Assembly (NCBI GenBank): GCA_022606425.2
Contig: JAHDVF020001222.1
Location: 1,054,001-1,118,000 of the forward strand
DNA length: 64,000 nt
Direction of reading: 5' to 3'
From: Lepidostoma basale
Lineage: Eukaryota; Arthropoda; Insecta; Trichoptera; Lepidostomatidae
The notes below the pieces were generated by a model. The model was not told where the DNA came from. It saw only the letters and a list, made by a program, of their open reading frames with translations, and searched no databases. The first letter of the stretch is position 1. Every line of letters begins with the position of its first letter. Position numbers and translations under genes: made by a program. Positions 5,190-55,560 of the stretch are shown here, piece by piece.

Positions 5190-5345
5190 TAGTCCATTGT
5201 TTTGGCCTAAACACTATGATACCTTAACATTTTAAACTATTAATGAATAAACTTTGTTTTTTGTATCACAATTGAATTTTATTTTTCGCGACAGCTGTTT
5301 CGCTAACCGATGTTAGCATCGTCAGGTCTTACAATTAAATAAATC
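5190..5345 (-). repeat. hammerhead-like palindromic element, family A, half copy
   Basis: Family A sequence (AGTCCATTGTTTTGGCC start) runs to the motif at 5283-5331. The facing half seen in other copies is absent. Compare 16096-16435, 38655-39015 and 55285-55560. Confidence 0.7.
5283..5331 (-). ncRNA. hammerhead-like motif A1
   Basis: On the minus strand: core CUGACGA (5325 to 5319), one extra U, helix II GCUAAC/GUUAGC with a four-base loop, GAAAC, palindromic ACAGCUGU, then C17 at 5290. Position 7 is C here and U in other family A copies, a position the hammerhead allows to vary. Helix II differs from the GUCAAC/GUUGAC of other copies but stays fully paired. Cleavage is untested. Confidence 0.65.
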
Positions 5346-5664
5346 AGAAAGACTTAGTTTATGTACTAAATTATTTGGAGGGGGGAAGAAACTACACATA
5401 ATATTGTAAATAATTATAATAAAGATGGGAAAAAACAGTAATAATTAGGTTCAAGAGTAACACAAATTCAATATTGACGTGTCAATAAAATTAAGAGATA
5501 TAAATAGTGAAGCAAATAACATCAATAGAAAAGGGGTTCGACAAGTGAAAGACATTTATAATAAAGGTGGAAAAATCCTTATTTAGATAATAACAGATGA
5601 TCATACATAATTGAGTGAGGCAGTACTCTTTGAATTCGTGGTGTTCGCCTTGCATTCGATCATA

Positions 5665-5945
5665 TATGTCATAATCGGTCGCACACAAGTCTTAGAGATC
5701 CATTTGTTAAATCTTCTGATGTCAGGGTTTGCCATATTGAATTTTTAAAACATCCTGTATGACTGTAGCCTTATTAACTTGACCCATCACTTTACATGGT
5801 AGATCCGTTTGACCACACAAGTCCACACCCAGATGTCTGAATACTTCAATCTGTTCCACTGAAACGCCTTCCACGGACACGCTATTTATCACCGGACTTC
5901 GAGAAATTACTCTTAGTCTTTGCCACTGATACAGTCATGTTATAT
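5665..5945 (-). pseudogene. LINE reverse transcriptase fragment
   Basis: An open minus-strand stretch reads SRSPVINSVSVEGVSVEQIE followed by VFRHLGVDL, then QVNKATVIQDVLKIQYGKP and a stop. This matches the connection between the RT palm and the C-terminal region in LINE polyproteins, where a V-[DE]-F-x-YLG-like motif is typical (here VFRHLG). It is not an exact relative of the RTE-like family next door. Confidence 0.7.
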
Positions 5946-5969
5946 TTTTTACTTCTGTGGAAACAAACA

Positions 5970-6775
5970 AACCATCACGCCGTTTCCCCGCAGGGGTAGG
6001 GAGAGAAAATGGACCGCCACACTACTCTTTCCTGGCAAACCTCTCTAGTTTCCTCCACATTCATACGAGTCATACACGCACGTCGATTCCTTTAAAATTT
6101 GATTAATTTGGTCATGCCATGTTTTCCTCGGTCTGCCTCGACTTCGTACCCCATTTACATAATTAACGTATACTTTCTTAACCATTCTTTCTCCATCCAT
6201 GCGTTCCATATGTCCGAACCAACGCAGCGATACTTTCATAATTTTGTTCATAATACCTTCTTCCGCTCTACATTTCTTTCTTATATCAGCATTTGAGGTT
6301 CTGTCGTATATCGTTCTACCACACATACGTCTTAGGGGCCTCATCTCTACCGCATTTATTCTCTCTCATCCTTCTTCTGCCAGTTCCATGCTTCGCTTCC
6401 ATACATTAGGGTTGGGACCATTAATCCATTGTGAACGGCCGTTTTCGCTTTCATCGATAATTTCTTGTTTCCAATAACTATTTTTAAAGCTCCATTCACT
6501 TTGTTACCCGCACCAACCCTTCTTTCGACGTCACTATCCGTTCGGCCATCTGCTGTGAACATGCTACCTAAATACACAAATTCCCTCACCTGTTCCAAGT
6601 TCTCTTCGTTCACACTTATATTACAAACTGTCATACTTCTGTGGAATGGGTTTAAAAGTGAATGCAGGTTCATGTTGTTGCAATAAATTGTTACATTAGT
6701 TAATTTTTCAGTCGCTTTCAAAAAGTTCTTCCAGCTGAGCTCTTCACTTTCACTTCTCGAGTCTGTGTCCAAACA
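5970..6775 (-). pseudogene. RTE-like LINE, subfamily B, 3' half
   Basis: Frames at 6356-6772 and 6045-6344 give EFVYLGSMFTADGR, RRVGAGNKVNGALK, MAVHNG-like, LMYGSEAWNWQKKDE, then after a frameshift RPLRRMCGRTIYDRTSNAD, LRWFGHMERMDGERM and RGRPRKTWHDQINQIL. The 3' end keeps CCCC-UGCG-GGG-like bases and CGGCGTGATGG but the tail is (GTTT)n, not (GTTA)n, which marks a second subfamily. This is the longest RTE piece 5' of the YLG motif in the window. Confidence 0.85.
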
Positions 6776-7099
6776 TTTGCAGGTCCTTCAAAACATCGTC
6801 CAACTAATGAAGCAGCGGTTTTCCCACGTTGCGTCTTCCCTCCGGTCTTCTCGTATATGTCAATAATGCAGGTGTTGACAGCTTCTCCATTCGCACCTAT
6901 GTCAAGCCCACCTATACCGCTGAAGTTTTATGAACTAGATGACGTCCGCTTGGTTCTGCAGTATAATTTAAATTATAATCTATCTTGTTAAAACTCCATC
7001 ACATACTTGATAAAACGCTTCCATGCCACAGGATTTAAATATTATAAAACTTGTATAAAGCGCACGTTTTCTTTTTAATTATGTTGATAGATTTCAAAA

Positions 7100-7250
7100 T
7101 AATAACTAACCATCACGTAGATAGAACTTATAAACCGCTATACTGATCCTTCTTGATGTACTTCTCTCGCTTCCTCAATATTCATACATTGTTTCATGTA
7201 CGCGCGTAGCTTTCCTCAACTTCTCGCGTGGCCGACAATAAATATTTTAT
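7100..7250 (-). pseudogene. RTE-like 3' fragment
   Basis: Minus strand starts after TAACTAACCATCACG and contains codons resembling the EEARE and RRACMTRC region with heavy decay. The UNCG hairpin part is rearranged. Confidence 0.55.
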
Positions 7251-7264
7251 TTGTCATATTCTTT

Positions 7265-7890
7265 TGTTAAAAAAAACATTCTAAATAGATCATATTTGTA
7301 AACAGTTTAATAATATTTTAAATATGTATATTAAATGAGATATAATTTTATAACTAAGACGAATGTGTGGATACTCTGTGTATGATAGAGTGTCGAATGA
7401 AAATATAAGAAGTGAATGCGGTGCGAATGATGGTGTCATGAACAAAATAATGAAAGGATCATTAAGATGGTTTGGACATATGTAAAAAATGGATGAAGAA
7501 AGAATGGTAAAAAAATTATACGTTAATGATATAAATGGAACCAGAAATAGAGGAAGACCGAGGAAAACGTGGCACGATCAAATAAATCAAATATGGAATG
7601 TCGGCCATGTGAGGAGTCAGAGAAAAGGACGCGCGTGTATGACACGATGTATGAATGTTGAGGAAGCGAGAGAAATATGTCAGGAAAGAAAAGTGTGGCA
7701 GTCCATTCTTTCTGCCTAACCCTGTGATGGTTAGTTAGTTTATATTTATAATATGTATCACTGAAGAAGAACTGGTTTTCCGAAACATGTCTGATATGTA
7801 ATTTTAATAGTATTGTATATACAAAGTATTTAAAAAGACAAATAAAACATCTACAACACAAAGTATGGCGAACATAGAAGAAAAATAAAT
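7265..7890 (+). repeat. hammerhead-like element, family I, split by an RTE
   Basis: Sequence before 7345 (CATATTTGTAAACAG-like) and after 7735 (ATATGTATCACTGAAGA, ending near GGCGAACATAGAAGAA) together match the continuous family I copy at 23640-23870. The RTE 3' fragment 7352-7735 sits between them. The motif at 7761 has CUGAAGA, an extra A, a mismatched GAAC/UUCC helix II, GAAAC and AUGUC. Confidence 0.65.
7352..7735 (+). mobile_element. RTE-like LINE 3' fragment nested in family I repeat
   Basis: Begins at RRMCGYSVYDR codons and runs through an open stretch with KLYVNDINGTRNRGRPRKTW, ACMTRCMNVEEAREICQERK and WQSILSA to TGATGGTTAGTTAGTT. The UNCG hairpin is lost by a deletion just before the tail. 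Nesting in family I dates this insertion after that element. Confidence 0.8.
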
Positions 7891-8004
7891 ATTTTATTGA
7901 TTTTATCCGTCTTATTCTATTTCTTCAGTTTATATCGTGAACAAATACTTTTTTTACATTTTTTCTTCGTTCAATAATCCTTTAATTATTTCTATCATAA
8001 CAAT

Positions 8005-8190: not shown

Positions 8191-8257
8191 TTTATATTTA
8201 TACAAATAGTTGTTGTATGTGTTAAAATATATTATGTATATATGTATATTGAAAAAA

Positions 8258-8808
8258 CAAAAACCTATCCAAAAAAGCTAGAATGGCAGTGCACAATGGT
8301 GTTCTTCTACCGACCCTTATGTATGGAAGCGAAGCATGGAACTGGCAAAGGAAGGATGAAAGTAGAATAAATGCAGTAGAAATGAGATCTCTTAGACGAA
8401 TGTGTGGATACTCTGTGTATGATAGAGTGTCGAATGAAAATATAAGAAGTGAATGCGGTGCGAATGATGGTGTCATGAACAAAATAATGAAAGGATCATT
8501 AAGATGGTTTGGACATATGGAAAGAATGAATGAAGAAAGAATGGTAAAAAAAATTATATGTTAATGATGTAAATGGAACCAGAAATAGAGGAAGACCGAG
8601 GAAAACGTGGCACGATCAAATAAATCAAATATTGAATGTCGGCCATGTGAGGAGTCAGAGAAATCGACGCGCGTGCATGACACGATGTATGAATGTTGAG
8701 GAAGCGAGAGAAACATGTCAGGAAAGAAAGGTGTGGCAGTCCATTCTTTCTGCCTACCCCTTCGGGGAGACGGCGTGATGGTTAGTTAGTTAGTTAGTTA
8801 GTTAGTAT
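8258..8808 (+). mobile_element. RTE-like LINE, best-preserved 3' end
   Basis: Reads NKNLSKKARMAVHNG, LMYGSEAWNWQRKDESRINA, SLRRMCGYSVYDRVSNENI, GSLRWFGHMERMNEERMVKK, one frameshift, then GRPRKTWHDQINQILNVGHV, RRACMTRCMNVEEARE, WQSILSAYPFGETA and TGA at 8777. The stop lies only four bases before (GTTA)n, so there is almost no 3' UTR. Codons for AYPFGE form a CCC-UUCG-GGG hairpin at 8757-8767. It is 5'-truncated like most LINE copies. Confidence 0.9.
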
Positions 8809-13497: not shown

Positions 13498-13760
13498 AAT
13501 GTAAATAAAACACTTGTTTTTCACCACTTGAGTATTATATTTTACACGACTAGTTTTGGAAGCTACAGATGCTTCCCCATCTACAGGTTTAAATATAAAC
13601 TGAGTTTTTATTTAAACCTGTAGATGGAAGCAACTGTAGTTTCTCGTGCAACTGTAGTCAATCGTGTAAAATATAATACTCAAGTGGTGAAAAACAAGTG
13701 TTTTATTTACAATTTAATCTCGTCCTACCACAAAGTGAATGCCGAAACAATAAATAACAT
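13498..13760. repeat. hammerhead-like palindromic element, family F, copy 1
   Basis: Arms 13498-13590 and 13609-13710 are inverted (TTTCACCACTTGAGTATTAT against its complement). The minus-strand motif has CUGUAGA (13586 to 13580), extra U, helix II GGAAGC/GCUUCC, AAAAC (one change from GAAAC) and UAGUC. The facing plus motif is damaged by rearrangement around 13630-13660. The 3' flank (CTACCACAAAGTGAATGCC) matches the 49.3 kb copy, so the element extends to about 13760. Confidence 0.7.
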
Positions 13761-16095: not shown

Positions 16096-16435
16096 AAATA
16101 GTATCCATTGTTTTGGCCAGAATACTATGATACTTTAACATTATTCACTGTTAAAATTTATAATACTGTTATGGTATCACAATTTGTATTATTCACTTTT
16201 TGAGTGTTGCGACAGCTGTTTCGCTAACCGATTTGGCATCACCAAGTGTTACAAACAACAGTTGTTTGTTTATAACACCCAAAATTTACCTGATGATGTC
16301 AACATAGGTTGACGAAACAGCTGTCGCGAAAAATGTAAATACAAGTGTGATACATAAAACAAAGTTTTTTTAATTTAACAGTTTATAATGTTAAAGTATC
16401 ATAGTGTTTCGGCCAAAACAATGGATTATATGTAT
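16096..16435. repeat. hammerhead-like palindromic element, family A, paired copy
   Basis: Inverted arms run from AGTATCCATTGTTTTGGCC-like (16099) to GGCCAAAACAATGGATTAT (ends ~16430). The left motif (minus, 16205-16255) is decayed in core and helix II. The right motif (plus) is intact and listed separately. The centre holds AACAACAGTTGTTTGTT. Confidence 0.75.
16278..16334 (+). ncRNA. hammerhead-like motif A2
   Basis: Plus strand: core CUGAUGA at 16290-16296, extra U at 16297, helix II GUCAAC/GUUGAC (16298-16303 with 16308-16313, loop AUAG), GAAAC 16314-16318, palindromic ACAGCUGU, C17 at 16325. Helix I AUUUAC with GCGAAA pairs at most positions. Every conserved core base is present. The departure from the textbook core is the inserted U between A9 and helix II. 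Confidence 0.7.
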
Positions 16436-17409: not shown

Positions 17410-17625
17410 TGTTTATGTATGTTTATAATGATAGTTAGATTCATTCCAATTATTTGTTCGTTACTGTTCTTAAGTTAAATTTTCTGCATATTATACTTGT
17501 CATTAGCCTTTACCTAGCAAATAAATAAAGCCGAGGTTCTATCGTTCTGTGTTTTTTATCCAAATTGTTATTTAATAATCCGTTTTATTGAATAATTAGC
17601 TGATAATTAAATAAAAATAGTTTTT
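17410..17625. other. no recognised feature
   Basis: Short AT-rich spacer between the family W tail and the family C palindrome. Confidence 0.5.
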
Positions 17626-17629
17626 TTTA

Positions 17630-17765
17630 TAACTACTTCCACATTTGTCTTTATTTCGACAGCGACCGGTTTCGCCAGGTTCGCAGTTACGACAGACTGG
17701 TGGACAGACCAGCCTGTCGAAGCCAGCCAACTTCCATCAAGAAATTTCAGTTGAATCATTTGATG
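17630..17765 (-). repeat. palindromic element, family C, copy 1
   Basis: Contains TTTATTTCGACAGCGACCGG and TTTCGCCAGG. On the minus strand this is CCTGGC-GAAAC-CGGUC-GCUGUCG: GAAAC followed by palindromic ACCGGU and C, as in the hammerhead-like families, but the CUGANGA core is not intact (CUGCGAA at best). Central bases CAGACTGGTGGACAGACCAG add a second hairpin. The flank at 17765-17890 (GGGCCGGATTAGGCCCG) is GC-rich and unassigned. Confidence 0.5.
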
Positions 17766-18224
17766 ATCTTAAAAAAATAATTAGTTGTCACGGGCCTGAT
17801 TGATGACACTGGTCATTAGCTGACGCAGGCCGGATTGATGACACCGGCGGGCCGGATTAGGCCCGCGAGTTTTGGTTTAGAGACCCCTGCTTTAAAATAT
17901 TAAATAACAGTGTCTGACAATTTATTTGCCACAATAATTTGCAGACTGTCATTACTTTACAATCATTGTTAAATATGACAAACACAGGTATTTGGAATTT
18001 CTTCCACTTAAGCGGCATGTAATTTCTTCTTTACAATTTTTTATTATTATTGATACATAATAATAATATGATACATTTTTTCATAAAAACAGTATGAATA
18101 ATTATTTAGATTATTACAGCGCAAACCAAATCAATGGTAAAAATGGATAAAAACAACATCAAAAGTAATATTAATATTATCGATTAAGTTAAATTACGAC
18201 AATTTTTAAAATGTTAAATCAATT

Positions 18225-18410
18225 TTTTTTTCCACTTTTGACTTTATTTTTCTTTACACGTTTTGAAAGATTAACACCTTCAATATCGGGAGAACGATAT
18301 AAACTGTTTATATTGTTCTTTTGACGATGAAGGTGTAAAGCATTCGAAACATATCAAGTTAATTAAACTCAAAAGTGATAAAAACAGTGTTTTAATTCAC
18401 AAATTATTCC
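18225..18410. repeat. hammerhead-like palindromic element, family B, copy 1
   Basis: Inverted arms around a central GAACGATATAAAC/GTTTATATTGTTC. The plus motif at 18316-18360 has UUGACGA, extra U, helix II GAAGG/CAUUC, GAAAC and AUAUC. The minus motif is more decayed. Compare the best copy at 52225-52503. Confidence 0.65.
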
Positions 18411-19640: not shown

Positions 19641-20356
19641 AACATTCAACCGATAATTGTGGTAGATGTAAAACGTGCAATTGAACGTGAAAAATATATG
19701 CTTGCTATTTGCGAAAACTCTTGAATTATAAGACAATGTTGAATATAATTAATTCCTCTAAGAAAGTACACTGAATTTTATTAAATGCACATTATCTCTT
19801 TCTTTTTTTGCAACACGTTATATTTTACAGCTGAGTTCAATTAATAATCTTGTATTTTTATATGTAACGTTTATAAAATATATAAACCCAAAATTATTGA
19901 GAAAAAAAAAAATATTGCATTATCACACCAAAAGATTAACAAACTATAAATATTAAATATTGTATGAAAAAATATATACAAATAAAAACTAACAGAATTA
20001 TAATACCATGAAAACATCTGCTTTCTAGAAGTTTTATTATAATTTATGGAAAGGAGGTGTTCGCCTTTCTAAGATACGAGTATTACCTTAATGTTGATAA
20101 TGCCTTAATTTTGCCAAACATTTCACAATGCCTTAGAAAGGCGAAAGATGCCATTCCCATAAATTTTATTAAAACTTCTAGAAAATATACAGTGTTGTAT
20201 TCATTATTAAAATGGAGTTTCATGTCATCGTTCAAGAAACAATATTATGTATCATTTTATTAATGCTAATTTATAATATTGATTCTGTAATTTATCACAA
20301 ATAGAAACATGCTTTATTAGAAAATATAAGTATTTATTAATTTTCTATCAGATCAT
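19641..20356 (+). repeat. near-tandem duplication, unit 1
   Basis: Starts AACATTCAAC, ends TTCTATCAGATCAT. It aligns along its whole length with 20369-21107, with scattered substitutions and indels. It includes a family H palindrome at about 20010-20190, where TTTATGG, GCCTTTCTAAG and CTTAGAAAGGC are visible. Confidence 0.8.
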
Positions 20357-20368: not shown

Positions 20369-21107
20369 AACATTCAACTGATAATTGTGGTAGATGTAAA
20401 ACGTGCAGTTGAACGTTAACATTTTATGTTATTGCTATTTGCGAAGGCTCTTAAATGATAAGACACTGTTGAAAATATATTTTTTCCTTTAAGAAACTAG
20501 ACTGAATTTTATTTAAATGCACATTGTATCTTTCTTTTTTGTAACACGTTACATTTTACGGCTGAGTTCAATTAATAATCTTATATTTTTGTATGTAACT
20601 TTTATAAAATATATAAACCAAAAATATTATTGAGAAAAAAAAATTATATTGCATTATCACACCAAAAGGTTAACAAACTATAAATATTAAATATTGTCTA
20701 AAAAAATTATACAAATAAAAACTAACTGAATTATAATACCTATGAGAAGGTCTGTTTTCTAGAAGTTTTATTATAATTTATGGAAATGACGTATTCGCCT
20801 TTCTAAGATATTATCAAATGTTGATAATGCCTTAATTTTGATAAATATTTATAATGTTAAACATTTCACAATGCCTTAAAAAGACGAAAGATGTCATTCC
20901 CATAATTTTTATTAAAACTTCTAACAAACATACAGTGCCATTCGTATTAATTATTTAAAATGGAGTTTTACATCATCGTTCAAGAAACAATAATATGTAT
21001 CATTTTATTAATGCTAATTTATAATATCGATACTGTAATTTATCACAAATAGAAACATACTTTATTAGATAATAATAATAGTATTTATTAATTTTCTATC
21101 AGATCAT
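20369..21107 (+). repeat. near-tandem duplication, unit 2
   Basis: Second unit, separated from unit 1 by 12 bases. Shared landmarks include GATAATTGTGGTAGATGTAA, AACACGTTA, GCATTATCACACCAAAAG, CTAGAAGTTTTATTATAA and TCTATCAGATCAT. Divergence between the units means the duplication is old. It includes a decayed family H palindrome at 20745-20945. Confidence 0.8.
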
Positions 21108-27474: not shown

Positions 27475-27965
27475 TCTTGGTCTTATCGTTAGAGTATTCA
27501 TAAATTCACCATAACTGCATTTAAAAAGGTCCACCTCAGATGTCATCCCGTTTAAAAGACGAATTGAAAGTCGACCTTGGTGGCTGAGTGGTAAGAGCTC
27601 TTAAATCCATACCGAAGGTCCCGGGTTCGATTCCTGGCGATGGCAGTGTGATTGTCACACTGTCTTTGGTCTGGTGTAGAATTCACGTGACAGTAAAATG
27701 GCGACAGATTGGCTTCTTATCACGTGTCAAGAGAATCTATATAATAGCCAAAATAAATTGTGTACAGTAATTGGTTTCAAATGACCTGTTGTATAAAAAA
27801 AAATGCCTTCATTACAGGAGAACTTCAAAGCGCCTCTGTGTAGCAATTTGGGATATAAAATAGATATAACCCCTTCATTTACTATATTTAAAGGGAACGT
27901 AATTAGTTATATCAGTATTATTTATTGTTTCTTGAACAATGGTGTAAAACTCATTATTGAATTAA
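27475..27965 (-). pseudogene. LINE family J relic split by a SINE
   Basis: 27475-27571 and 27804-27965 align with neighbouring parts of 24905-25100 (CTTATCGTTAGAGTATTCA, AAAAGACGAATTG, then TTACAGGAGAACTTCAAAGC). SINE S1 (27572-27803) lies between them. Confidence 0.7.
27572..27803 (+). mobile_element. tRNA-derived SINE S1, best copy
   Basis: A box TGGCTGAGTGG at 27581-27591 and B box GGTTCGATTCC at 27624-27634 are both exact. The full body ends GACCTGTTGTATAAAAAAAA. Inserted in a LINE J relic, so S1 was active after that LINE died. Confidence 0.9.
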
Positions 27966-27999
27966 TAATATGTAAGAAAAAAAGATAGTTTTCAATGAG

Positions 28000-28190
28000 T
28001 TTTATTATTATATTTATGTATACCATGTTAGCCCTTCTAAGGCATTATCAAATGTATACACTCTGACATTTGATAATGCTTTAGAAGGGCGAAACATGTC
28101 ATACATAAATATTATAAGAAAATTCCCTGAAAACTCTCGTTTTTTCATACATATTAATAATATATCAGTATTGCCGGATTGAAACTGCCC
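28000..28190. repeat. hammerhead-like palindromic element, family H
   Basis: Two facing motifs lie about 20 bases apart. Left, minus: UUGAUAA (28051 to 28045), extra U, GCCUU/AGGGC, UAAC in place of GAAAC. Right, plus: UUGAUAA 28070-28076, U, helix II GCUUU/AAGGGC, GAAAC 28091-28095, AUGUC to 28100. Arms continue with TATTTATGTATAC and its complement. Confidence 0.7.
28060..28112 (+). ncRNA. hammerhead-like motif H
   Basis: The core reads UUGAUAA: relative to CUGANGA, C3 is U and G8 is A. C3 and G8 form a Watson-Crick pair in the hammerhead fold, so the double change keeps the pair. Helix II, GAAAC and palindromic ACAUGU plus C17 are present. Helix I is weak here (two pairs next to the core, then mismatches). 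Confidence 0.55.
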
Positions 28191-28799: not shown

Positions 28800-28990
28800 C
28801 ATTTAAATATGTAGTCCATTGTTTTGGCCGAAACACTATTATACCTTAACATTTTAAACTGTTAAATTAAATATCTTTGTTTTTCGTGTCACAATTGTAT
28901 TTTATTTTACGCGACAGCTGTTTCATCAACCTATGTTGACATCATCACGTGTTACAAAAATATTTCAAATGTCAAATTTTCGTAATTTTT
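28800..28990 (-). repeat. hammerhead-like element, family A, half copy
   Basis: TAGTCCATTGTTTTGGCC start as in other family A copies. The motif on the minus strand at 28909-28957 has GUGAUGA (C3 to G), extra U, GUCAAC paired with GUUGAU, GAAAC and ACAGCUGUC. The C3 change should inactivate it. Confidence 0.7.
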
Positions 28991-31298: not shown

Positions 31299-31359
31299 TT
31301 TTTATTTTGAAACAGTGTTACAAGTATCACAATTTATTTTTATGAAAATAATTAAATAA

Positions 31360-31490
31360 AACGTTTTTTTTTAACTACCTCCACTTTTATCTTTATTTCG
31401 ACAGCGACCGGTTTCGCCAGGCTCGCTGTCGAAATAAAGACAAAAGTAGAAGTAGTTAAAAAACATCGTTTTTATTTAATTATTATTTAA
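31360..31490. repeat. palindromic element, family C, copy 2
   Basis: Near-perfect hairpin: CTTTATTTCGACAGCGA and its complement are separated by about 12 bases, with TTTTAACTACCTCCACTTTT-like arms outside. The minus strand carries CCUGGC-GAAAC-CGGUC with GCUGUCG pairing to CGACAGC as a strong helix I, but CUGANGA is deleted. Likely a collapsed hammerhead-like unit. Confidence 0.55.
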
Positions 31491-32083
31491 AATGAACTTC
31501 CATCAACAGATTTCAGTAAAATCATTTGATTATTTTTATGAGATTGTCACTACATATCTATGACTAATAATCACACTAATGAGTGTTTTTAAGACTTCTT
31601 CTATATTTTGTATCGTTTTTATCATTCACAACTTTTTTGTAAAAAACTTTTGAAGATGTATTTGACGATACGCATAGTATAAATATATTAATTAACGTAG
31701 CCTGGTTATCACATACTTGTAAACAACGTCCTCCAATCAGATAAATTAATCTGGGAAAAGAAGTTTGTGATAATTACGTAGTAAATCGACATCTGACATT
31801 CGGTAGCTAAAGACACGAATTCCGATATATTTATTTATGTAAAAAAATTCATCTCATTTACATTTTATCTTTATGGCAGGTGCGGGATTTATACTGAGAG
31901 TGTGATGGCGTAATTTAAAATAGTTAATCTGAAAACAGTTTTTGTTATAGTGAATCGGGCGTGTCAGAACATTTGTGGAAGAAATAATTTCATACAAACA
32001 TTGCAATCTTATTTAATAATAAATTAAGTTATTTCGTTGTTTTGTGTTCATAACATATTTCATTTCTCATTTCCTTTTTTATA
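31491..32083. other. no recognised feature
   Basis: AT-rich spacer, nothing supported. Confidence 0.45.
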
Positions 32084-32420
32084 TACTTTGTATAAACAAC
32101 ACTTATATTAAAAAAATAAAATTACATAGACATGTTTCGGACAAACAGTCCTTCTTCAGTAAAGGTACATTTAAAAAAATATTATAAAATTGTTTACATT
32201 GTCTGAGAGACGGTATCTTTCTAAAATCTTTATAACATCTGGTCAGATCGTGTAAACAATTTTATAATATTTAAAAAAATGTATCTTTACTGAAGGACTG
32301 TTTGTCCAAAACATGTCTATGTATTTTTTTTTTAAATGTAAGTGTTGTATATACAATACGTATACAAAGTATATTAAAAAAAAGATAAATAAACTACCAT
32401 AACAGCATAAAGTATGGTGT
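32084..32420. repeat. hammerhead-like palindromic element, family I, paired copy
   Basis: Inverted arms TATACTTTGTATA...ACACTTATATTAAAAAAATA and the complement enclose two facing motifs. The left motif is intact (listed separately). The right motif, at 32290-32317, has lost three core bases (CUGA directly followed by AGGAC) and has AAAAC for GAAAC. Confidence 0.75.
32125..32166 (-). ncRNA. hammerhead-like motif I, intact core
   Basis: Minus strand: CUGAAGA (32159 to 32153, N7 = A), one extra A, helix II GGAC/GUCC with loop UGUUU, GAAAC (32138 to 32134), AUGUC with C17 at 32129. Helix I has two pairs next to the core, then mismatches and wobbles. The extra base is A here where families A, E, F and H have U. 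Confidence 0.65.
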
Positions 32421-32529: not shown

Positions 32530-32790
32530 AACAGTCCATTGAAACACTGTGATAAAAAATTTAAGTGTTATATTTACTATACTGTTAAAATATTTTTATT
32601 TTTTATTTTACAATTTTTTATATATATCGCGACAGCTGTTTCACAAATCATGTTGGCATCATCAAGTGTCACAAAAACAACAGTTGTTTGTAACTCCTGA
32701 TGATGTCAACATCGGTTAGTGAAACAGCTGTCACGACATTATCAAAAAGTGTATAATTAATAAATGTGACATTATAACAGTGTTGTAAAA
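32530..32790. repeat. hammerhead-like palindromic element, family A, paired copy
   Basis: CAGTCCATTG start, left minus motif decayed (32628-32675), centre CAACAGTTGTTTGTAAC, and right plus motif with CUGAUGA 32697-32703, U, GUCAAC/GUUAGU, GAAAC 32721-32725, AGCUGUC to 32732. Helix II is weakened by one mismatch and two wobbles. Confidence 0.75.
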
Positions 32791-33445: not shown

Positions 33446-34069
33446 TACAATACAATTTTTTCATTTACTCAATATTTTAAATAGTATAATAAACGCGATA
33501 ATAATGCTTATAGAAAATTAAATTCAAAATAAGAAAGAAGAAAAAATATATAATACATAAATATAATTTTTAATTAGCGAGAACAATATTTGATAATATA
33601 TGGTACTTGCAATGCGAAACATCTGGCTGACATATAACGTTAAAAAATATAGAAAACTGACGTTCACATCAATATTAACCGTATTTATTTTGCCTTATAA
33701 GTATATGTTGTATTTACCATTGAATATGTAACGTTACATATTTATGTATGAACGTGCACTTCCTTTATTAATAAGTGACCCGCGGGGATAGAACCAGTAG
33801 CCTGAGATTCTTCTTGAAATGATAATACAGAACAGCTCAGCTTCTCACCACCGATATGAGTTATTCAAGGATGTGCTGTGGAAACTCAACTTTTTCAGTT
33901 TATTAAAATGGGATTTGAGCGTTTGGGCGATAAAGTAAATTGGAATGTTCTGGACTTCGAAATCGTTTATTTTCTTCTTTAAATACGAGAAAGTTTATAA
34001 ATCATCCAAAAATAAGATTACTTATGATTATTACCTTGATGAATTATTTAAGAATTAAAATACTGGTTT
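33446..34069. other. no recognised feature
   Basis: Unassigned AT-rich DNA. 33775-33850 (GACCCGCGGGGATAGAACC) resembles a B-box-containing tRNA or SINE scrap but cannot be supported. Confidence 0.35.
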
Positions 34070-34260
34070 TCCATTTTTGGGTATATTTTTCCTGACATAT
34101 TTCGAACCCTTTATACCTTCATTACCGGAAAAATGATATAAACAGTTAATAATGTTCTCCCGATGATGAAGATGTAAAACCTTTGCAACATGTGGATAAA
34201 AATAAGCCCTTAAGTGTAAAAAGCAGTGTTATAATTCATAAATAATTCGTCATTACGGAA
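34070..34260. repeat. hammerhead-like palindromic element, family B, copy 2
   Basis: CCTGACATATTTCGAA on the left and CTCCCGATGATGAAG to GCAACATGTGG on the right. The right motif keeps helix I UUCUC, CCGAUGA (34160-34166) and U, but helix II and GAAAC (now GCAAC) are mutated. Decayed. Confidence 0.6.
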
Positions 34261-34779: not shown

Positions 34780-34905
34780 TTAAATCGCTCTTTATATTGG
34801 TACAACCAACAGGTTTCGCTCCACCGGTGTTTCGTCAGGGTTACAAAAGACACTTTAGTAACGGGAGCGAAATCGGTTGGTTGTGCCAAAATAAAGTGGT
34901 ATTTA
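34780..34905. repeat. hammerhead-like palindromic element, family G
   Basis: Arms TTTATATTGGTACAACC and GGTTGTGCCAAAATAAAG. The left half carries an intact core and strong helix I (listed separately). The right half keeps GGAGC-GAAAU-CGGUU-GGUUGU but has lost the core. Confidence 0.65.
34802..34844 (-). ncRNA. hammerhead-like motif G
   Basis: Minus strand: helix I GUAACC (34844 to 34839) pairs at all six positions with GGUUGU (34807 to 34802), two as wobbles. The core CUGACGA is exact (34838 to 34832). GAAAC is at 34817 to 34813, followed by CUGUU, so the cleavage triplet would be GUU, also permitted. Helix II is atypical: the interval is AACACC-GGUGGAGC, a palindrome with little loop. Confidence 0.6.
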
Positions 34906-34999
34906 ACAAATTACAAGCGTATTATTATTATATTTAATAATGACACTCCAGATATTGTGTGCTTCATACAAAATCATTATTGTCTTCATAAAAATAATT

Positions 35000-35170
35000 A
35001 ATACGAATGATAACGCCTGTGTTCTAGAAGTTATTTTATATTCTATGTGAATGACATGTTTCGTTTGTCTTATGCATAAGATATTTGATATTGCCTTAGA
35101 CAGGTGAAATATGTCATTCACATTGAATATAATAAAACTTTTAGAAAACACGTTTTAATTCGTATTTATT
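35000..35170. repeat. hammerhead-like palindromic element, family H
   Basis: TGAATGACATGTTTCGTTTG on the left, and UUGAUAU, U, GCCUU/AGGU, GAAAU, AUGUC on the right (35085-35115). Arms CTAGAAGTTATTTTATATTC and AATATAATAAAACTTTTAG. Core and GAAAC are mutated. Confidence 0.65.
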
Positions 35171-35765
35171 ATCTTCATAATAAATCTGCATTCTTCATCT
35201 TGTAATAAACTTGGATTCAAGTTAAACGATCTGGTTTTAACTATCTTAGTAAAACCACGTGATTTCTAACGTATAGACAATTTCCTGATAATCAAATTCA
35301 TTTTGGATGTTTTATTCATGGACCTTTGCTGGAAGGAATTCCCTAAGTACCGTATTTCGCATACTTGCATAACAAATCTCCTTAGTGGAATTATTCCTGT
35401 TGTATTCCACAATATCGCCTACCGTCTTTTTTATAAATTTACATATCTAAATTCTGAAGTTGGAAACTTGAATAAAATGTATCGTGCATTGTGCAGTGAG
35501 TGAATTTAAATAACGCAAAATGGCAATAACCTTACAGGTATAAGTAAGCCAATAATTATAAAATTTCATATGTTTTTTTTCTTCTTCTATGGAATCACGT
35601 TGATTTACCCGCTTATAACTTGTGGGTTATCAATGATTGATACCATTAATAAATGTATTAATATTATTTAATAAGACGTTTGCTTCTAATATACATAAAG
35701 TGTTAATATGTAAAGTTAAATATATGTAATTATGTAAAGTTCATGAAAAATATTGTAAACTTTAT
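35171..35765. other. no recognised feature
   Basis: Unassigned. A 66-codon plus frame at 35303-35503 has no recognisable motif. Confidence 0.4.
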
Positions 35766-35769: not shown

Positions 35770-35952
35770 ACGACCTTTGTGACCGAATAGTAAGTGTTTG
35801 ACTGCCATTTCGAAGGTCTCGGGTTCGATTCCCGACGATGGCAGTATGTTTGTCACGCCGCCTAGGTCTGGTGCAGAATTCTCGTGACAATAAAATGGCG
35901 ATTGATAAGGTACCTATCACATGTCACGAGAAACAATATGAGAGCTATGTCC
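35770..35952 (+). mobile_element. tRNA-derived SINE S1, 3'-truncated
   Basis: The head is diverged in the A box (TGACCGAATAG) but keeps B box GGTTCGATTCC at 35821 and the body to CACATGTCACGAGAAACAAT. The end is replaced at ~35955 by an inverted copy of the GCGCGAGCCAAAT repeat. Confidence 0.8.
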
Positions 35953-37660: not shown

Positions 37661-37969
37661 AAAACTTCTAAATAAATTTAACTTCAATTCCCAGTCTTTA
37701 TATGTATGATGCAATTTTAAACTGTTTTATTAACATTTGTTGACCTAAAATTGATGAAAACCATCCGAAAAATGTCTACGAAGAATATAATAAGGAGTTG
37801 TAAAAATCCAATGTCAACATATTTTTTTATTGTTTCTTGAATAATGATGTATAACTCCATATTTAAAAATAATTCATACAAATCAAAACAATAATGTTTT
37901 TAATTGAAATTTCATCGTTAATAATATATCAAAAATATAATAAAATCAATCTTTACATTGATTATTTAG
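37661..37969. other. no recognised feature
   Basis: AT-rich. ATTGTTTCTTGAATAATGAT near 37838 is a flank motif that accompanies family H copies. Confidence 0.4.
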
Positions 37970-38100
37970 TTTTATTCCACTTGATTGTTAGCTTCGACCA
38001 GTTTCGGGAGCTTTCTGCCAGACTAGAAGATGTGAGTGAGATGCCGAACCCGGTCGAAGCTTAAAATCAAGTGAAATAAAAAGAAATATTTATAAAACGT
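37970..38100. repeat. palindromic element, family D
   Basis: CCACTTGATTGTTAGCTTCG and its near complement CGAAGCTTAAAATCAAGTG face each other. The minus strand has CCC-GAAAC-UGGUC-GAAGCUAACA and the plus strand GAACC-CGGUC-GAAGCU: the same GAAAC-palindrome-GUC-helix order as the hammerhead-like families. No clean CUGANGA is left. Confidence 0.45.
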
Positions 38101-38650: not shown

Positions 38651-38654
38651 AATA

Positions 38655-39015
38655 GTCCATTGTTTTGGCCAAAACACTATGATACCTTAACATTTTAAAC
38701 TGTTAAAATAAATAACTTTATTTTATGTATCACAATTGTATTTTATTTTACGCGACTGCTGTTTCGTCAACCTATGTTGACATCATCAGGTGTTACAATA
38801 ATAGTATCAAATGTCAAATTTTCGTGATTTTTCGAAACTTTATGCGTGTTTGTTCCTATGTCAATTTGAATAATGTCTTAATAATTTAAAAAATTACGAC
38901 ATTTTGACATTTGATATATTATTGTAACACCTGATTATGTCAACATAGGTTGACAAAACAGCTGTCGCGTAAAATAAAATACAATTGTGGTACATAAAAT
39001 AAAGTTTTTTATTTT
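38655..39015. repeat. hammerhead-like palindromic element, family A, largest paired copy
   Basis: Outer arms AAATAACTTTATTTTATGTA.../...ACATAAAATAAAG. Left motif intact on minus. Right motif (38931-38966, plus) has CUGAUUA (G8 to U) and AAAAC. Inner arms carry TGTCAAATTTTCG and its relatives. The pair is separated by about 140 bases. Confidence 0.8.
38749..38797 (-). ncRNA. hammerhead-like motif A (38.7 kb)
   Basis: Minus: CUGAUGA (38789 to 38783), U, GUCAAC/GUUGAC with loop AUAG, GAAAC (38765 to 38761), AGCAGUC. Same as motif A2 except one base in helix III (GCA for GCU), which breaks the palindrome. Helix I AACAC with GCGUA is mostly paired. Confidence 0.65.
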
Positions 39016-41939: not shown

Positions 41940-42100
41940 CAATTAATTCGAATGAAAACGTCTATGTCCTATAGGTTTTATAATACTTTATGGGTATGAC
42001 ATGTTTCAAATATTTGATAATGCCTTAGAAAGGCGAAACAGCTCATTCCCATGAAATATTACGAAATATCTAGAAAACAGACGTTTTCATTAATATTAAT
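41940..42100. repeat. hammerhead-like palindromic element, family H
   Basis: The left arm AATTCGAATGAAAACGTCTA...TATGGGTATGACATGTTTC is truncated inside the motif. The right motif is nearly complete: UUGAUAA 42014-42020, U, GCCUU/AAGGC with loop AGA (five perfect pairs), GAAAC 42035-42039, then AGCUC. Outer arm CTAGAAAACAGACGTTTTCA. Confidence 0.7.
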
Positions 42101-43651: not shown

Positions 43652-43985
43652 TTTTAAGGATTAATTGTATCTCAATAGAGACGAAGATGTAAATTGTTTT
43701 TTTTTTTGGCCACCATATTCTCGGCCACCATATTCACCATACTCGGCCACCATATTCACCATACTCGGCCACCATATTCACCATACTCGGCCACCATATT
43801 CACCATACTCGGCCACCATATTCACCATACTCGGCCACCATATTCACCATACTCGGCCACCATATTCACCATACTCGGCCACCATATTCTGTTTCCAAAA
43901 AAAAACAATTTACTTCTTCATTTCTATTGAGATACAATTAATACTTAAAAATGGTTAATCTGCAATGGGTAAAAATCCAGTATTT
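43652..43985. repeat. inverted repeat with internal 22-bp minisatellite
   Basis: Arms TTAATTGTATCTCAATAGAG...GATGTAAATTG and CAATTTACTTCTTCATTTCT...GATACAATTAAT face each other. Between them, 43708-43890, GGCCACCATATTC recurs nine times, mostly at exact 22-base spacing (unit ACTCGGCCACCATATTCACC AT). Only the last unit is followed by TGTTTCC, as in the single-copy relatives. Two overlapping open frames here are simply the repeat read in different phases. Confidence 0.85.
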
Positions 43986-44995: not shown

Positions 44996-45163
44996 GTGCC
45001 TATTTGCTTTTTTAAAAATGTTTTCTTTATATATTTAACTATTATGTCTTAAAAACGTCATATATGTACTAGTTGTAAGAAATATGTATTTTTTTATAAC
45101 TAAATAAATACACTTAAGAAATTGAAAATAGCTTTGTTTATTATCCTCAAAATATTAAAAAAA

Positions 45164-45202
45164 CAGGACACGTTTCGGAGGATACCTCCATCTTTAGGTG
45201 TA
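45164..45202 (-). ncRNA. hammerhead-like motif E, left
   Basis: Minus: CUAAAGA (45197 to 45191; G5 to A, N7 = A), U, helix II GGAGG/CCUCC with loop UAU, GAAAC (45176 to 45172), GUGUC with C17 at 45167. The G5 change is shared by both family E motifs, so it is ancestral to this copy and may reduce or abolish activity. Confidence 0.55.
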
Positions 45203-45218
45203 AATATAAAATATTTAT

Positions 45219-45262
45219 TTACACCTAAAGATGGAGGTATCCTCCGAAACATGGCGTGTTTT
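45219..45262 (+). ncRNA. hammerhead-like motif E, right
   Basis: Plus: helix I ACAC (45221-45224) pairs perfectly with GUGU (45256-45259). CUAAAGA 45225-45231, U, GGAGG/CCUCC with loop UAU, GAAAC 45246-45250, AUGGC (left motif has GUGUC). U16.1 replaced by G would block cleavage here. Confidence 0.55.
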
Positions 45263-45427
45263 TTTTAATATTCTGTGGATAATAAACAAAGATATTTTCA
45301 ATTTCCTTAGTGTATTTATTTATAATAGATATAAAAAAATTACATATTTCTTACAACAAGTGTACGACATTTTTAATACATAATAGTTAAATATATAATG
45401 AAAACATTAAAAAAAGCAAATAGGCAC

Positions 45428-47219: not shown

Positions 47220-47695
47220 CCAAATAAATCGTATGTACCGACGTGAAGCTTGAAGCTGAAAAAAAAGGATAAAAACAGGATAAATGTCGTAGAATTGAGA
47301 TCAATGAGAAGAATGTGCGGTAAAACGATATATGATAGAATACCGACGACGAAATAAGGAAGAAATGTAAGGCAGAAGATTGCATCATAAGTAAAATTAA
47401 AAAAGGATCTCTCAGAGAGGTTGGAGATATGGAACCAATGGACGAGAGAAGAATTTTTAAAATGTTATATACAAGCAGTGTGAGTGGAAAGAGAAGTTGT
47501 AGAAGACCAAGGAAAGCATGGCATGACCAAATTAATCAATTATTGAAAGGCGGTCACATTCGAAGTCGGAAAAATCAAGGAACGTGCATGTGACGATGTA
47601 TGATTGTGGAGGAATCAAGGTATGGCGATCCATCCTCTCTACCTACCCCTTCGGGGAACCGGCGTGATGTTTAGTGAGTTAGTCAGTTAGATATG
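47220..47695 (+). pseudogene. RTE-like LINE 3' part
   Basis: YRREAxSxKKRIKTG-like, RRMCGKTIYDRIPTTK-like, RGWRYGTNGREK-like, GRPRKAWHDQINQLLKGG, then ACCCCTTCGGGGAACCGGCG, TGATGTTTAGTGAGTTAG. The UUCG hairpin is perfect here even though the frame is broken. This is the subfamily that also occurs at 370-845. Confidence 0.75.
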
Positions 47696-48930: not shown

Positions 48931-49129
48931 ATTCAATATAGAGTTTTACCTCATTGTCAAAAACAAAATATATCTATCATTTTATTAATACTGACATTTT
49001 AGAAATACTTGAATTGATGTTTGGCAATTTGTATAAATATAATATAATACATAAAAAAAATATTAAATCATCCATTTACTACAATTAAATTGTAAATGAA
49101 ACACTTGTTTTTCACCACTTGAGTATTAT

Positions 49130-49184
49130 ATTTTACACGACTAGTTTCGGAAGCTACAGATGCTTCCATCTACAGGTTTAAATA
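49130..49184 (-). ncRNA. hammerhead-like motif F, left
   Basis: Minus: CUGUAGA (49175 to 49169), U, helix II GGAAGC/GCUUCC (six perfect pairs, loop AUCUGUA), GAAAC (49148 to 49144), UAGUC with C17 at 49139; helix III is the palindrome ACUAGU. The core has U at position 6 where A is expected. Confidence 0.6.
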
Positions 49185-49234
49185 TAAACTTTTATATTTT
49201 AGTTATAAACTATAAACTTTTATATTTTAGTTTA

Positions 49235-49290
49235 TATTTAAACCTGTAGATGGAAGCATCTGTAGCTTCCGAAACTAGTCGTGTAAAATA
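49235..49290 (+). ncRNA. hammerhead-like motif F, right
   Basis: Plus: same as the left motif, CUGUAGA 49244-49250, U, helix II 49252-49257 with 49265-49270, GAAAC 49271-49275, UAGUC to 49280. Helix I UUUAAAC (49237-49243) pairs with GUGUAAA (49281-49287) at six of seven positions. Confidence 0.6.
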
Positions 49291-49412
49291 TAATACTCAA
49301 GTGGTGAAAAACAAGTGTTTTATTTACAATTTAATCATGTCCTACCACAAAGTGAATGCCGAAACAATAAATAATACATTTACTAGAAGTTTATGTTTAT
49401 TTAAACAAACTG

Positions 49413-51980: not shown

Positions 51981-51987
51981 TTTACAA

Positions 51988-52150: not shown

Positions 52151-52303
52151 GTATTTTTTTAAATAAAAAAACTATGACTGCTACACCGAAGGTCCCGGGT
52201 TCAATTCTCGGCGTTGGCAGTTTGAAAAAAAAAACAAATTAAACAAAACTAATTTCACGAATTTTTATGAATTAAAACACAGATTTTTTTCGCTTTTGAG
52301 TTT

Positions 52304-52356
52304 ATTTTTCTCGACATGTTTCGAAGGTTTACCCCCCTTATCATCAGGAGAACGAT
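52304..52356 (-). ncRNA. hammerhead-like motif B, left
   Basis: Minus: helix I UUCUC pairs perfectly with GAGAA (five pairs). CUGAUGA exact (52347 to 52341), then UAAGG paired with CCUUC except the first position, GAAAC (52322 to 52318), AUGUC with palindromic ACAUGU. The extra base of other copies is absent here because of a one-base loss. Best overall match to a hammerhead in the window. Confidence 0.7.
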
Positions 52357-52365
52357 AGTTTATAT

Positions 52366-52415: not shown

Positions 52416-52630
52416 AAACTTGAAAGTGGAAAAAACAGTGTTTTAAATCATAAAAATTCGTAAATATGGAATTCCACAGCTTTAAGTTTATCTAAAAAAC
52501 TTATTTGGTCTGGTAGAACTCACGTGACAATACAAATGCTGCCTACCTGATATATGTCATAAGAATCAATGAATCAATAGCAAAAAAAATGTATACTGTA
52601 ATTGAACTCATATAACCTGATGTGTACAAA

Positions 52631-53110: not shown

Positions 53111-53114
53111 TTTG

Positions 53115-53335: not shown

Positions 53336-53339
53336 GCGC

Positions 53340-54030
53340 GTGAATTAACCGCTTGTTCGTGGAGTTATTAAATAAAACTATGATATTTTCGAATTTTATG
53401 CCTATCATGCAAATAATATTTTTTCTAGCCATTAAATGTGCAACAATAATATTATTTTCTTAATGATTAAGTTTAATTTCGCTGTACTTTATGGTTAGGC
53501 AATTACTCGGCGAAAACAGTTATTTTTGAATAAATGATTGGTTTATTGGAATAGTAATTATTGTTCCTACTGCATATTGTTACGGATATTAACTTTTATG
53601 GCACTATTACTGAATATTCATAAATAATTTCACACATAACCTACATGCATACGTACCCAGACGTTTTCAAACAAACAACCAATTAATTTATGGTTGTATC
53701 GTTATGGTATATTCCAGAGGTCGGCAAACTGCGAACGATTATTTTTAACTGGCTCACGATCTAACAAATGTTTTTGATAAACTTAAGGCGTTAACACTGG
53801 AACTCCAAAATTACATTTTTATATAAATTGAAACCACCATGAAAAAAATGCAAAACTAGAAAAAACTGTATTTTAAATCATAAAAAATTCATCAAAGTAA
53901 AGTTTCTTTTAAAAACACTAAAATATACATGTATGTAAATGTTATTCTACCATCATATTGAAGTTTAAATATTTTTTCTTAAAAATACAATTTTTCTTAA
54001 TAAATCACACCTAAATCTCTACAAACAATT
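53340..54030. other. no recognised feature
   Basis: AT-rich, unassigned. Confidence 0.45.
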
Positions 54031-54032
54031 AT

Positions 54033-54640
54033 AAACTAACTAACCATCACGCCGTCTCCCCGAAGGGGTAGGCAGAAATAATGCACTGCCACGCTTTTCT
54101 TTCCTGACATATTTCTCTCGCTTCGTCTTCCTTCTTAGACATGCATGATATTAAATCATTCATTAAAGTTATGAAGAATTTGCGCTTCGATGGTTATGAT
54201 TTTCTTCCCATCTTCTTCTCTAATGGCTGCTTTGAGCTGTTAATATATCCGCTCTATGTTTTTATTTAACCGATCGTTAAGTACAAATACTTTCCCTGGT
54301 CTTTATAAAATTTCCAGAATCTTTATAAAACTTCCTCTACATTCATACATCGTACCATGCACGCACGTCGATTATTCCGACTTCATTAATTTGGTCATGC
54401 CATATTTTCCTCGGTCGTCCTCGGCTTCTTTTTCCACTTATGCTGCTTGTGTAAAATTTTTTAACCATTCTACTCTCATCTATTCGTTCCATATGTCCAA
54501 ACCATCACAGGGATCCTTTTTAATTTTATTCATGATGCAGTCATCTGCCTTACATTTTTTTTCTTATTTCATCGTTCGGTATTCTATCATAAAACGTTTT
54601 CCCGCACATTTTTCTTAGTTATCTCATTTCAAGAACATGA
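54033..54640 (-). pseudogene. RTE-like LINE, two blocks with a foreign interval
   Basis: 54033-54132 is a good (GTTA)n end with CGGGGAGACGGCG and YVRKEKRGSAL-like codons. 54325-54640 continues 5' with CMVRCMNVEEVL-like, GRPRKIWHDQIN, WFGHMERIDESRMVKK and IIEYRTMK-like codons. The interval 54133-54324 does not match the RTE and may be an insertion. Confidence 0.7.
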
Positions 54641-54878
54641 CGACCTTCGTGGCAGAGTGGTAAGAGCTCTAATTCCCATTCCGAAGGTTCTGGGTTCGAT
54701 TCCTGGCGATGGCAGTGTGATTGTCACACTGTCTTTGGTCTGGCGTAGTATTCTCGTGACAATAAAATGGCGATAGATTGGCTATCTGTCACATGTCACG
54801 AGAATCAATATATCAGCTTAAAAAAAATGTATACTGTAATTGGGTTCAAGCGACCTGTTGCATACGTAATAAAAAATT
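54639..54878 (+). mobile_element. tRNA-derived SINE S1
   Basis: A box TGGCAGAGTGG 54650-54660, B box GGTTCGATTCC 54693-54703, full body to CGACCTGTTGCATACGTAAT and an A-run. Almost identical in structure to 27572-27803. Confidence 0.9.
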
Positions 54879-54879
54879 C

Positions 54880-55284
54880 AAGAACAGTATCAACAATCAA
54901 AAAACGAAGATAAATTAAACTGGTTTTCATGTGTCAACAATCACTAGATAATGTCAACACTCATGGCAGAACATGTACAATATACATATCACGGGTCATC
55001 ATTTTAGAAAGGGCGTAACGAAGTGTTCGTCTAACGCACAAACTGTTATCTGTAATCACCTGATTTAGCCGAGTCATCCCTCTCTGATTTGGAGATGACT
55101 CTGAGGCATTGTTATACCGGTAAAACAATGGATGTCGATGTACGATCATAACCAGGCAATTAAACGGATACCAGGCTGTGTGAAATGTCTTGTCAGATTG
55201 CCAGGGGTCAAAATTTATAATGCAGAAAAAGTTCTTACTCGCTAATTTATAATAATGTATAAACGAGACGTGTATATATTTTAA
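54880..55284. other. no recognised feature
   Basis: The minus frame 54961-55287 (108 codons; includes SSPNQRGMTRLNQVITDNSL) is the only one of note and I do not recognise it. Confidence 0.35.
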
Positions 55285-55560
55285 CATTTTATAACTGTTA
55301 ATTCAAAAACTTTGTTTTATATCACAAATTGTATTTATTTTACTTAACGACAGCTGTTTCATCAACCAATGTTGACATCATCAGGTGTTATAAAAATATA
55401 TATCAAATGTCAAATTTTCGTAATTTTTGACATTTGACATTTGATATATATTTTTATAACACCTGATGATGTCACATTGGTTGATGAAACAGCTGTCGTA
55501 AAGTCAAATAAATACAATTTGTGATATAAAACAAAGTTTTTCAATTAACAGTTTTAAATA
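55285..55560. repeat. hammerhead-like palindromic element, family A, paired copy
   Basis: AACTTTGTTTTATATCACAA and TTGTGATATAAAACAAAGTT form outer arms. Left minus motif: CUGAUGA (55384 to 55378), U, GUCAAC/GUUGAU, GAAAC, ACAGCUGUC. Right plus motif: CUGAUGA 55463-55469, U, GUCAC/GUUGAU (one base lost), GAAAC 55486-55490, AGCUGUC to 55497. Inner arms TATCAAATGTCAAATTTTCG. The mariner begins at the right edge. Confidence 0.8.
55343..55395 (-). ncRNA. hammerhead-like motif A (55.4 kb, left)
   Basis: All core bases match CUGANGA and GAAAC; helix II has six pairs with one G-U; helix III is the palindrome ACAGCUGU. Helix I UAACAC against GUUAAG is weak. Good core, weak helix I. Confidence 0.6.

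Follow-up and report, generated by a model that had tools for sequence, protein, structure and literature searches.

Head-to-head palindromes with predicted hammerhead motifs in a caddisfly genome: probable pseudo-LTR pairs of Penelope-like elements

Minimal hammerhead ribozymes of Penelope-like elements (PLEs) are reportedly active as dimers, which is said to be the finding of Cervera and de la Pena (2014) and Lunse et al. (2017). These ribozymes have a type I layout with a palindromic helix III that is too short to close. PLE hammerheads, inverted pseudo-long terminal repeats (pseudo-LTRs) and optional tails are already known; how PLEs move and why they carry hammerheads are open questions. 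Here we analyzed palindromic elements in a 64,000-nt stretch of the Lepidostoma basale genome (contig JAHDVF020001222.1, positions 1,054,001 to 1,118,000; C317 in our numbering), hereafter the window, and traced them by pattern searches through the 769-Mb assembly from which it comes. Our analysis suggests that the palindromes are probably head-to-head pairs of PLE pseudo-LTRs, written by target-primed reverse transcription from both cut target strands on two RNAs.

The palindromes resemble the PLEs of the rotifer Adineta vaga, which, as described in PMC3846280, combine GIY-YIG and reverse transcriptase (RT) domains with head-to-head inverted pseudo-LTRs, one of them optionally tailed, hold the first codons of their open reading frame (ORF) inside the pseudo-LTR and are flanked by target duplications of 8-10 bp. 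They differ in that several families here are abundant as short, ORF-less pseudo-LTR pairs, whose unequal ends we counted. They also resemble the Anolis element Poseidon PAc, which has a tail and lets RT begin at two internal sites close to the start of its ORF, cuts and extends both target strands, carries a hammerhead adjoining the ORF start and inserts in vitro without ribozyme cleavage (PMC11167929). Set against the published description of PAc, a CCGG-type PLE family of the caddisfly has its start codon downstream of the hammerhead and not at stem II. Metazoan retrozymes are likewise repeats that code for no protein, carry type I hammerheads and may make use of PLE proteins; according to PMC7229834 they are direct tandem repeats giving circular RNAs, whereas the elements studied here are inverted pairs. 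New here are the counted pattern of unequal ends, the abundance of miniature pairs and the consensus core variants. Searches of an open-licence library and of literature listings yielded no paper on lepidopteran PLE pseudo-LTRs that form miniature head-to-head pairs and carry hammerheads.

Inverted pairs, their ends and their link to Penelope-like elements

We drew 121 loci from the genome (L002-L122), removed L010, a duplicate of L006, and left out L087-L089. The analysis of ends and partner arms covered 72 loci of one family, family B, which were picked through an intact CTGATGAT...CGAAACATGTC core, a minority form of which about 100 of 388 places were listed. An inverted partner arm lay within 130 nt, with the 3' ends outward, in 54 of the 72 loci, the arms being about 100-150 nt long; the remaining 18 had none within that distance, and L018 and L023 show a match in opposite orientation at a greater distance. 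Among the listed matches of families A, B, C and G, about 100 places per family judged by eye for orientation and core form, cores less than 150 nt apart were head-to-head in 28 cases, direct in one and tail-to-tail in none.

The outer ends of these pairs are unequal. With thresholds for tailed and untailed ends that were fixed after inspection of the data, and with 17 of the 54 pairs excluded for an unresolved end, 31 of 37 family-B pairs had one tailed and one untailed end (18.3 expected, p = 1.5e-5); five others had no tail and one, L017, had two. All 13 inverted pairs of the CCGG-type PLE were of the one-tailed, one-untailed kind. These 13 came from 30 GIY-YIG loci and three fetched loci, with L101, L106 and L109 excluded as too broken or old to pair; L102, L112 and L113 are single arms. 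One tail per pair is a strong tendency in family B, and exceptionless only in the 13 PLE pairs examined.

Target duplications flanked 16 of the 43 family-B pairs entered into the test (of 54), against 1.9 expected, and 9 of the 13 PLE pairs at a score of at least 9, against 1 of 156 mismatched flanks; by eye, L110, L116 and L121 have them as well. Across the two groups, their length varies from about 8 to 14 bp. At the inner ends, both arms reached the same point in 27 of the 54 B pairs, with fillers of 0-32 nt between them. The PLE arms of a pair are truncated independently, at different points that differ again between insertions. About 40 of the 54 family-B partner arms cross the predicted cleavage site (position 49/50), and therefore uncleaved RNA was copied; a spike of truncations at that site, looked for in the same 54 arms, was absent, as nine begin beyond position 50 and none at 50. 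Since most arms were copied across the site, cleavage appears not to be required for insertion.

The tails connect the arms to PLEs. In families A, B, C and F, as in the CCGG-type PLE, they start from an ATG and follow the pattern M-x-[FY]-H or one close to it, with damage in single copies from the window. The peptides are MLKYHSVSAKTMD in A, MEFHSVNALSLSK in B (read from one B unit), MSYHKVNAETINN in C, MEFHVIVQETI in F and MNFHQEISVKSF in the PLE, and several of the nearest full-length PLE proteins begin MEFHQV, MDFHQV (MDFHQVTAESI) or MNFHQV (MNFHQVTATSI). Of 58 PLE proteins with at least 730 aa (among 120 listed), 10 carry the motif [FYL]H.[VIL], chosen after the tails had been seen, in their first 30 residues, against 50 of 1419 background windows. 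Because the tails resemble PLE N-termini, the arms of these families read as PLE pseudo-LTRs with the first ORF codons, derived from several PLE families.

A search of the genome for GIY-YIG domains gave at least 62 matches (150 of 542 candidates scored). In 16 of 30 GIY-YIG loci a CCGG-type hammerhead motif lies about 465 nt (415-472) 3' of the domain, and these 16, some of which overlap, share the hammerhead layout including an extra U. In L122, which belongs to the CCGG family, RT and GIY-YIG domains stand in one frame (RVT_1, E = 9.5e-14; GIY-YIG, E = 7.2e-6), and among its relatives are proteins from insects and metagenomes that carry RT domains and, in some cases, GIY-YIG domains; the body of a young CCGG-type PLE was seen in part. 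The tails, the GIY-YIG loci and the target duplications support the original prediction, made from the window sequence, that the palindromes are hammerhead-derived retroelements tied to PLEs. It had further called them non-autonomous, which we would refine: they may arise as by-products when PLEs insert, and not be non-autonomous families that replicate.

Some observations on single loci belong here. Eight of the 18 single-arm B copies (L021, L030, L038, L051, L053, L071, L018 and L004) share roughly 70-120 nt of extra upstream sequence, which may come from the parent PLE's 3' region or reflect a longer transcript. In L022, a family-B unit seemingly sits inside a family-F palindrome, as judged by eye. 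The first and third GIY-YIG matches, L090 (G000:C102) and L092 (G000:C729), lie on contigs of 1.6 Mb and 0.25 Mb; their ORFs, read from the frames, we take to be bacterial UvrC-like, and we regard these contigs of the insect assembly as symbiont or contaminant.

Predicted hammerhead motifs and their families

We scanned the window with a descriptor comprising a CUGANGA-like core, helix II, GAAA, a palindromic helix III and UH, permitting zero or one base after A9. Eleven motifs were found, ten of them scoring at least 16, where 60 dinucleotide shuffles averaged 0.12, with 1 as the highest value; the hits stem from few families and are not independent. One base stood between A9 and helix II in all 11 (9 T, 1 A, 1 G), and in 35 of 52 chance hits in the shuffles. 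The motif with G at this position, at 13819, is probably a chance hit. A stricter scan of the window, requiring 3 bp of helix I and a helix II flush with GAAA, gave no hits.

Helix II was paired in 92% of cells, with a covariation score of 0.61 against 0.21 in shuffles, none of 500 of which scored as high; two further measures, the number of covarying pairs and of pair types, did not exceed the shuffles (165 and 166 of 500 as high). Helix I is weakly paired, at 55% of cells over two pairs: the C-G adjoining the core is present in 7 of 10 rows and the next pair in 4 of 10. Helix III is self-complementary (CATG, CTAG, CAGCTG or CCGG), a frequency biased by scans and patterns that favoured palindromic forms, and is usually followed by TC, an NUH cleavage site. 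A model built from ten arms of families A, C, G and H, with B and F kept out, recovered family B at 52363+ (E = 1.9e-5) and at 52303- (E = 0.009). Family F did not rise above background (E = 5-7), and its assignment rests on its own 23 arms. No hammerhead was found in the window by Rfam, either at gathering scores or at E values up to 10, where all matches apart from one tRNA were below their own gathering scores. Scans of viral contigs gave one match, by eye a bacterial RT motif, and otherwise none.

Seven families were verified: six in the window, namely A (helix II GUCAAC, helix III CAGCUG), B (GAAGG, CAUG), C (GGAAGC, CUAG), F (GCCUU, CAUG), G (GGAGG, CAUG) and H (GGAC, CAUG), and the CCGG-type PLE family, traced through the genome. 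The original prediction had listed at least nine, and two palindromes (34776-34910 and 37963-38088) were not accepted as hammerheads, showing by eye only GAAA-like pieces. Its three example motifs (52304-52356, 16278-16334 and 32125-32166) are all present, its six helix II sequences all exist, and the unpaired base it noted after A9 recurs in every family. The helix I pairing that it described proved weak. The CCGG palindrome at 31331-31499 shows the GAAAC half alone and is a truncated PLE whose full motif occurs elsewhere in the genome.

The consensus core is canonical in families A and G and non-canonical in B, C, F and the CCGG-type PLE. Pattern searches of the genome, in which some core positions were left open for A, G and C, matched 1766 places for A, 2056 for G and 473 for C, with no matches to the reversed pattern in any of them. 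The main core is the canonical CUGAUGA in A (6 exceptions among about 100 matches listed) and the canonical CUGAAGA in G (14 exceptions among about 100, three of which are another CUGANGA); 12 family-G loci were glanced at only. In C it is the non-canonical CUGUAGA (4 exceptions among about 100 listed), and in the CCGG-type PLE the non-canonical CUGUCGA. The main B core, CCGAUGA, is non-canonical through U4C: CCGATGA gave 3092 genome matches (none reversed; mostly B among the matches listed), against 388 for the CTG form of the B-type pattern. Since this unbiased count makes CCG the main form, we dropped the idea that each pair is a heterodimer of one CTG and one CCG arm. Family F has UUGAUAA in 13 of 23 arms, also non-canonical; U3 in 18 arms and A8 in 22 indicate that its C3-G8 pair has become U3-A8. 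The core of family H looks canonical in the few copies seen.

The arms carry predicted PLE-type hammerhead motifs, several with non-canonical consensus cores. Compared with the minimal PLE hammerheads, their consensus cores include U4C, A6U and a U3-A8 pair, together with the extra base after A9. These consensus cores are natural tests of whether selection acts for cleavage or for RNA pairing. According to PMC3088659, the change from C3-G8 to U3-A8 occurs in nature and is active, and a U4C variant, weak in vitro, is sufficient in a viroid. In the Anolis PLE, the ORF opens at stem II, with C3 and G8 ahead of its start codon (PMC11167929); from this description, its layout could be read as A9-U-G, with the same extra U. 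The extra base may thus be a normal feature of PLE hammerheads, and may already have been described in earlier work on hammerhead-bearing PLEs.

Proposed insertion at both target strands and alternative explanations

On the reading that we consider likely, each arm holds a predicted minimal hammerhead, in which the palindromic helix III has zero loop and A9 is followed by one extra base. An untailed arm has its 3' end at an internal site immediately ahead of the PLE start codon, and a tailed arm at a second site about 40 nt further, past the first ORF codons. The PLE RT/GIY-YIG protein would cut both target strands, and both target 3' ends would prime reverse transcription inside the ORF start, on a separate RNA each and one per start site. 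The complementary DNAs would reach the RNA 5' end or stop early, their far ends being joined with filler. Copying begun on the 5' pseudo-LTR of a messenger RNA would insert a short pseudo-LTR only, giving miniature palindromes, and the two RNAs could be kept in contact through the palindromic helix III. The Anolis enzyme cuts and extends both strands and uses two adjacent start sites near the ORF start (PMC11167929). Unequal ends (13/13 PLE pairs, 31/37 B pairs) would link the tail, the inverted layout and the two in vitro start sites to one event, and the rule of one end of each kind can be checked with the in vitro system already available and in any genome rich in PLEs. A more specific version, which we hold tentatively and think doubtful, is that an enzyme acting as a dimer opens the two strands and uses two RNAs as templates, one from each of the two adjacent start sites, helix III being primarily an RNA pairing device; retention of the palindrome alongside drift of catalytic residues (U4C, A6U) would then be accounted for.

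Several points weigh against insertion from both strands. No convincing target duplication was found in 27 of 43 B elements, and of the seven families the CCGG one alone yielded a PLE body, with none for A, B, C, F, G and H; the families with tails do not include G and H. Window pairs, judged by tail BLAST and by eye, comprise eight with one tail, one with two (family A, at 16.2 kb) and five without, in which tails may be hidden by decay. Among the matches listed, one family-A couple is tail-to-tail, about 154 nt apart (C62:284762+/284950-). Which PLE arm is longer does not depend on tail state, the longer one being tailed in five pairs and untailed in five. The Anolis study, in its account of start sites, finds no difference between strands and therefore does not yet explain the rule of one end of each kind (PMC11167929).

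We infer two RNAs per insertion, and the strongest challenge to this comes from the Adineta vaga study, which accounts for the same head-to-head layout, and for palindromic junctions, by self-priming on an antisense template (PMC3846280). An RT that turned at the element 5' end and copied itself on one template would also suit L121, an almost perfectly symmetric palindrome, and the two-tailed pair L017, which has more than 200 nt of inverted flank on each side, as copying back of the flank would give, and may be such a case. Young PLE arms are 98.8-99.8% alike within pairs and 97.5-99.0% between pairs, as self-priming would have it; B arms, no more alike within than between pairs (0.872 vs 0.861, p = 0.12), do not discriminate. 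Self-priming nevertheless predicts equal outer ends, whereas they are unequal in the great majority of resolved B pairs and in every PLE pair, with direct target duplications flanking them, and fillers and very unequal arm lengths are common. We therefore regard it as rather unlikely as a general explanation.

Still less probable is a palindromic RNA transcribed through the whole element and mobilized as a hairpin like a short interspersed nuclear element (SINE), the palindrome being inherited and not remade. In many B copies both arms are indeed full and the ends are unequal in the same way, and some partner arms lack the outer part, as 5' truncation would leave them. Against this, fillers vary between copies, with a single T recurring in 4 of 27; core-to-core gaps run from 8 to 76 nt in family-C pairs with identical cores (among the matches listed); breakpoints differ among PLE pairs; and 18 of the 72 B loci lack a near partner arm. 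The tail state of an arm is also unlinked to its CTG or CCG core state, and on this ground a master palindrome with arm-specific states was dropped.

Miniature inverted-repeat DNA transposons, whose palindromic structure would give the hammerhead likeness as a by-product, are very improbable: the arms are terminal and inverted, and the Rfam matches on the palindromes are hairpin families below gathering scores, mostly microRNAs, yet helix II sits within one arm and covaries, neither the target duplications (about 8 to 14 bp) nor the termini are fixed, the tails resemble PLE N-termini, and PLE copies share the layout. Metazoan retrozymes, as direct tandem repeats bounded by hammerheads, were rejected on the orientation tally of 28 head-to-head cases to one direct among the listed cores less than 150 nt apart.

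Features of the window

Table 1 Predicted hammerhead-like arms and PLE pieces in the window
Feature	Position	Strand	Tail
Family A motif, helix II GCTAAC/GTTAGC, helix III CAGCTG	5280..5335	-	5189-5230
Family H, single arm	7751..7803	+	
Family C, left arm	13538..13596	-	
Family C, right arm	13608..13673	+	13722-13757, ATG lost in this copy
Family A, left arm of inverted pair	16201..16255	-	16104-16141
Family A, right arm, CTGATGA-T-GTCAAC..GTTGAC-GAAA-CAGCTG-TC	16280..16335	+	16388-16425
CCGG-type PLE pseudo-LTR fragment, degenerate hammerhead	17603..17687	-	PLE tail 17729-17771 (+)
Family B, left arm	18226..18299	-	
Family B, right arm	18311..18397	+	
Family F arm	20118..20178	+	20212-20249, opens MEFHVIVQETI
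Family F, left arm	20754..20821	-	
Family F, right arm	20861..20921	+	20960-20997
Family F, left arm	27962..28055	-	27922-27952
Family F, right arm, TTGATAA-T-GCTTT..GAAA-CATG-TC	28060..28110	+	
Family A, single arm	28903..28958	-	28812-28852
CCGG-type PLE palindrome; arms begin near hammerhead cleavage site / inside helix II hairpin	31331..31499	.	PLE tail 31492-31533 (+)
Family H, left arm, CTGAAGA-A-GGAC..GTCC-GAAA-CATG-TC	32118..32169	-	
Family H, right arm, damaged core	32280..32328	+	
Diverged family A, left arm	32621..32675	-	
Diverged family A, right arm	32687..32741	+	
Family B, left arm	34053..34106	-	
Family B, right arm	34154..34236	+	34257-34294
Family F, left arm	34997..35063	-	
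Family F, right arm	35080..35171	+	
Family A, left arm, tailed	38744..38799	-	38652-38693
Family A, right arm, untailed	38921..38976	+	
Family F, left arm, short	41978..42007	-	
Family F, right arm	42012..42100	+	
Family G, left arm, GGAGG/CCTCC, CATG; main genome form CTGAAGA	45157..45207	-	
Family G, right arm	45215..45265	+	
Family C, left arm, core CTGTAGA, helix III CTAG	49129..49185	-	
Family C, right arm	49234..49290	+	49337-49377, encodes MSYHKVNAETINN
Family B, left arm, CTGATGA copy, helix II short by one base	52303..52357	-	
Family B, right arm, CCGATGA-T-GAAGG..CCTTC-GAAA	52363..52416	+	tail pieces 52465-52497
Family A, left arm	55339..55394	-	
Family A, right arm	55453..55507	+	

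Outside the assigned families, the segment 38599-38654 (+) matched a model, R1, at E = 0.0076. The palindromes at 55333-55513, 45166-45256, 49162-49258 and 13559-13643 match Rfam microRNA families below gathering scores, and such palindromic repeats could be misannotated as microRNA genes.

The window also holds a Mariner-type transposase fragment at 55684-56301 (-), with Transposase_1 and DDE_3 matches, and a tandem array of a 22-bp repeat at 43695-43911. Among named hits, the best matches of a LINE fragment are moth proteins. A tRNA-like sequence lies at 35773-35843 (+), with weaker ones at 27574-27645 and 54643-54714; these are probably SINE heads, the SINE being repeated within the window and present in several of the fetched loci as well. 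A further repeat family, with GTTAGTTAG runs in most copies, has nine listed copies, including those at 1303-1353, 2660-2710 and 8742-8792, as well as 26543-26593, 47631-47681, 61801-61851 and others.

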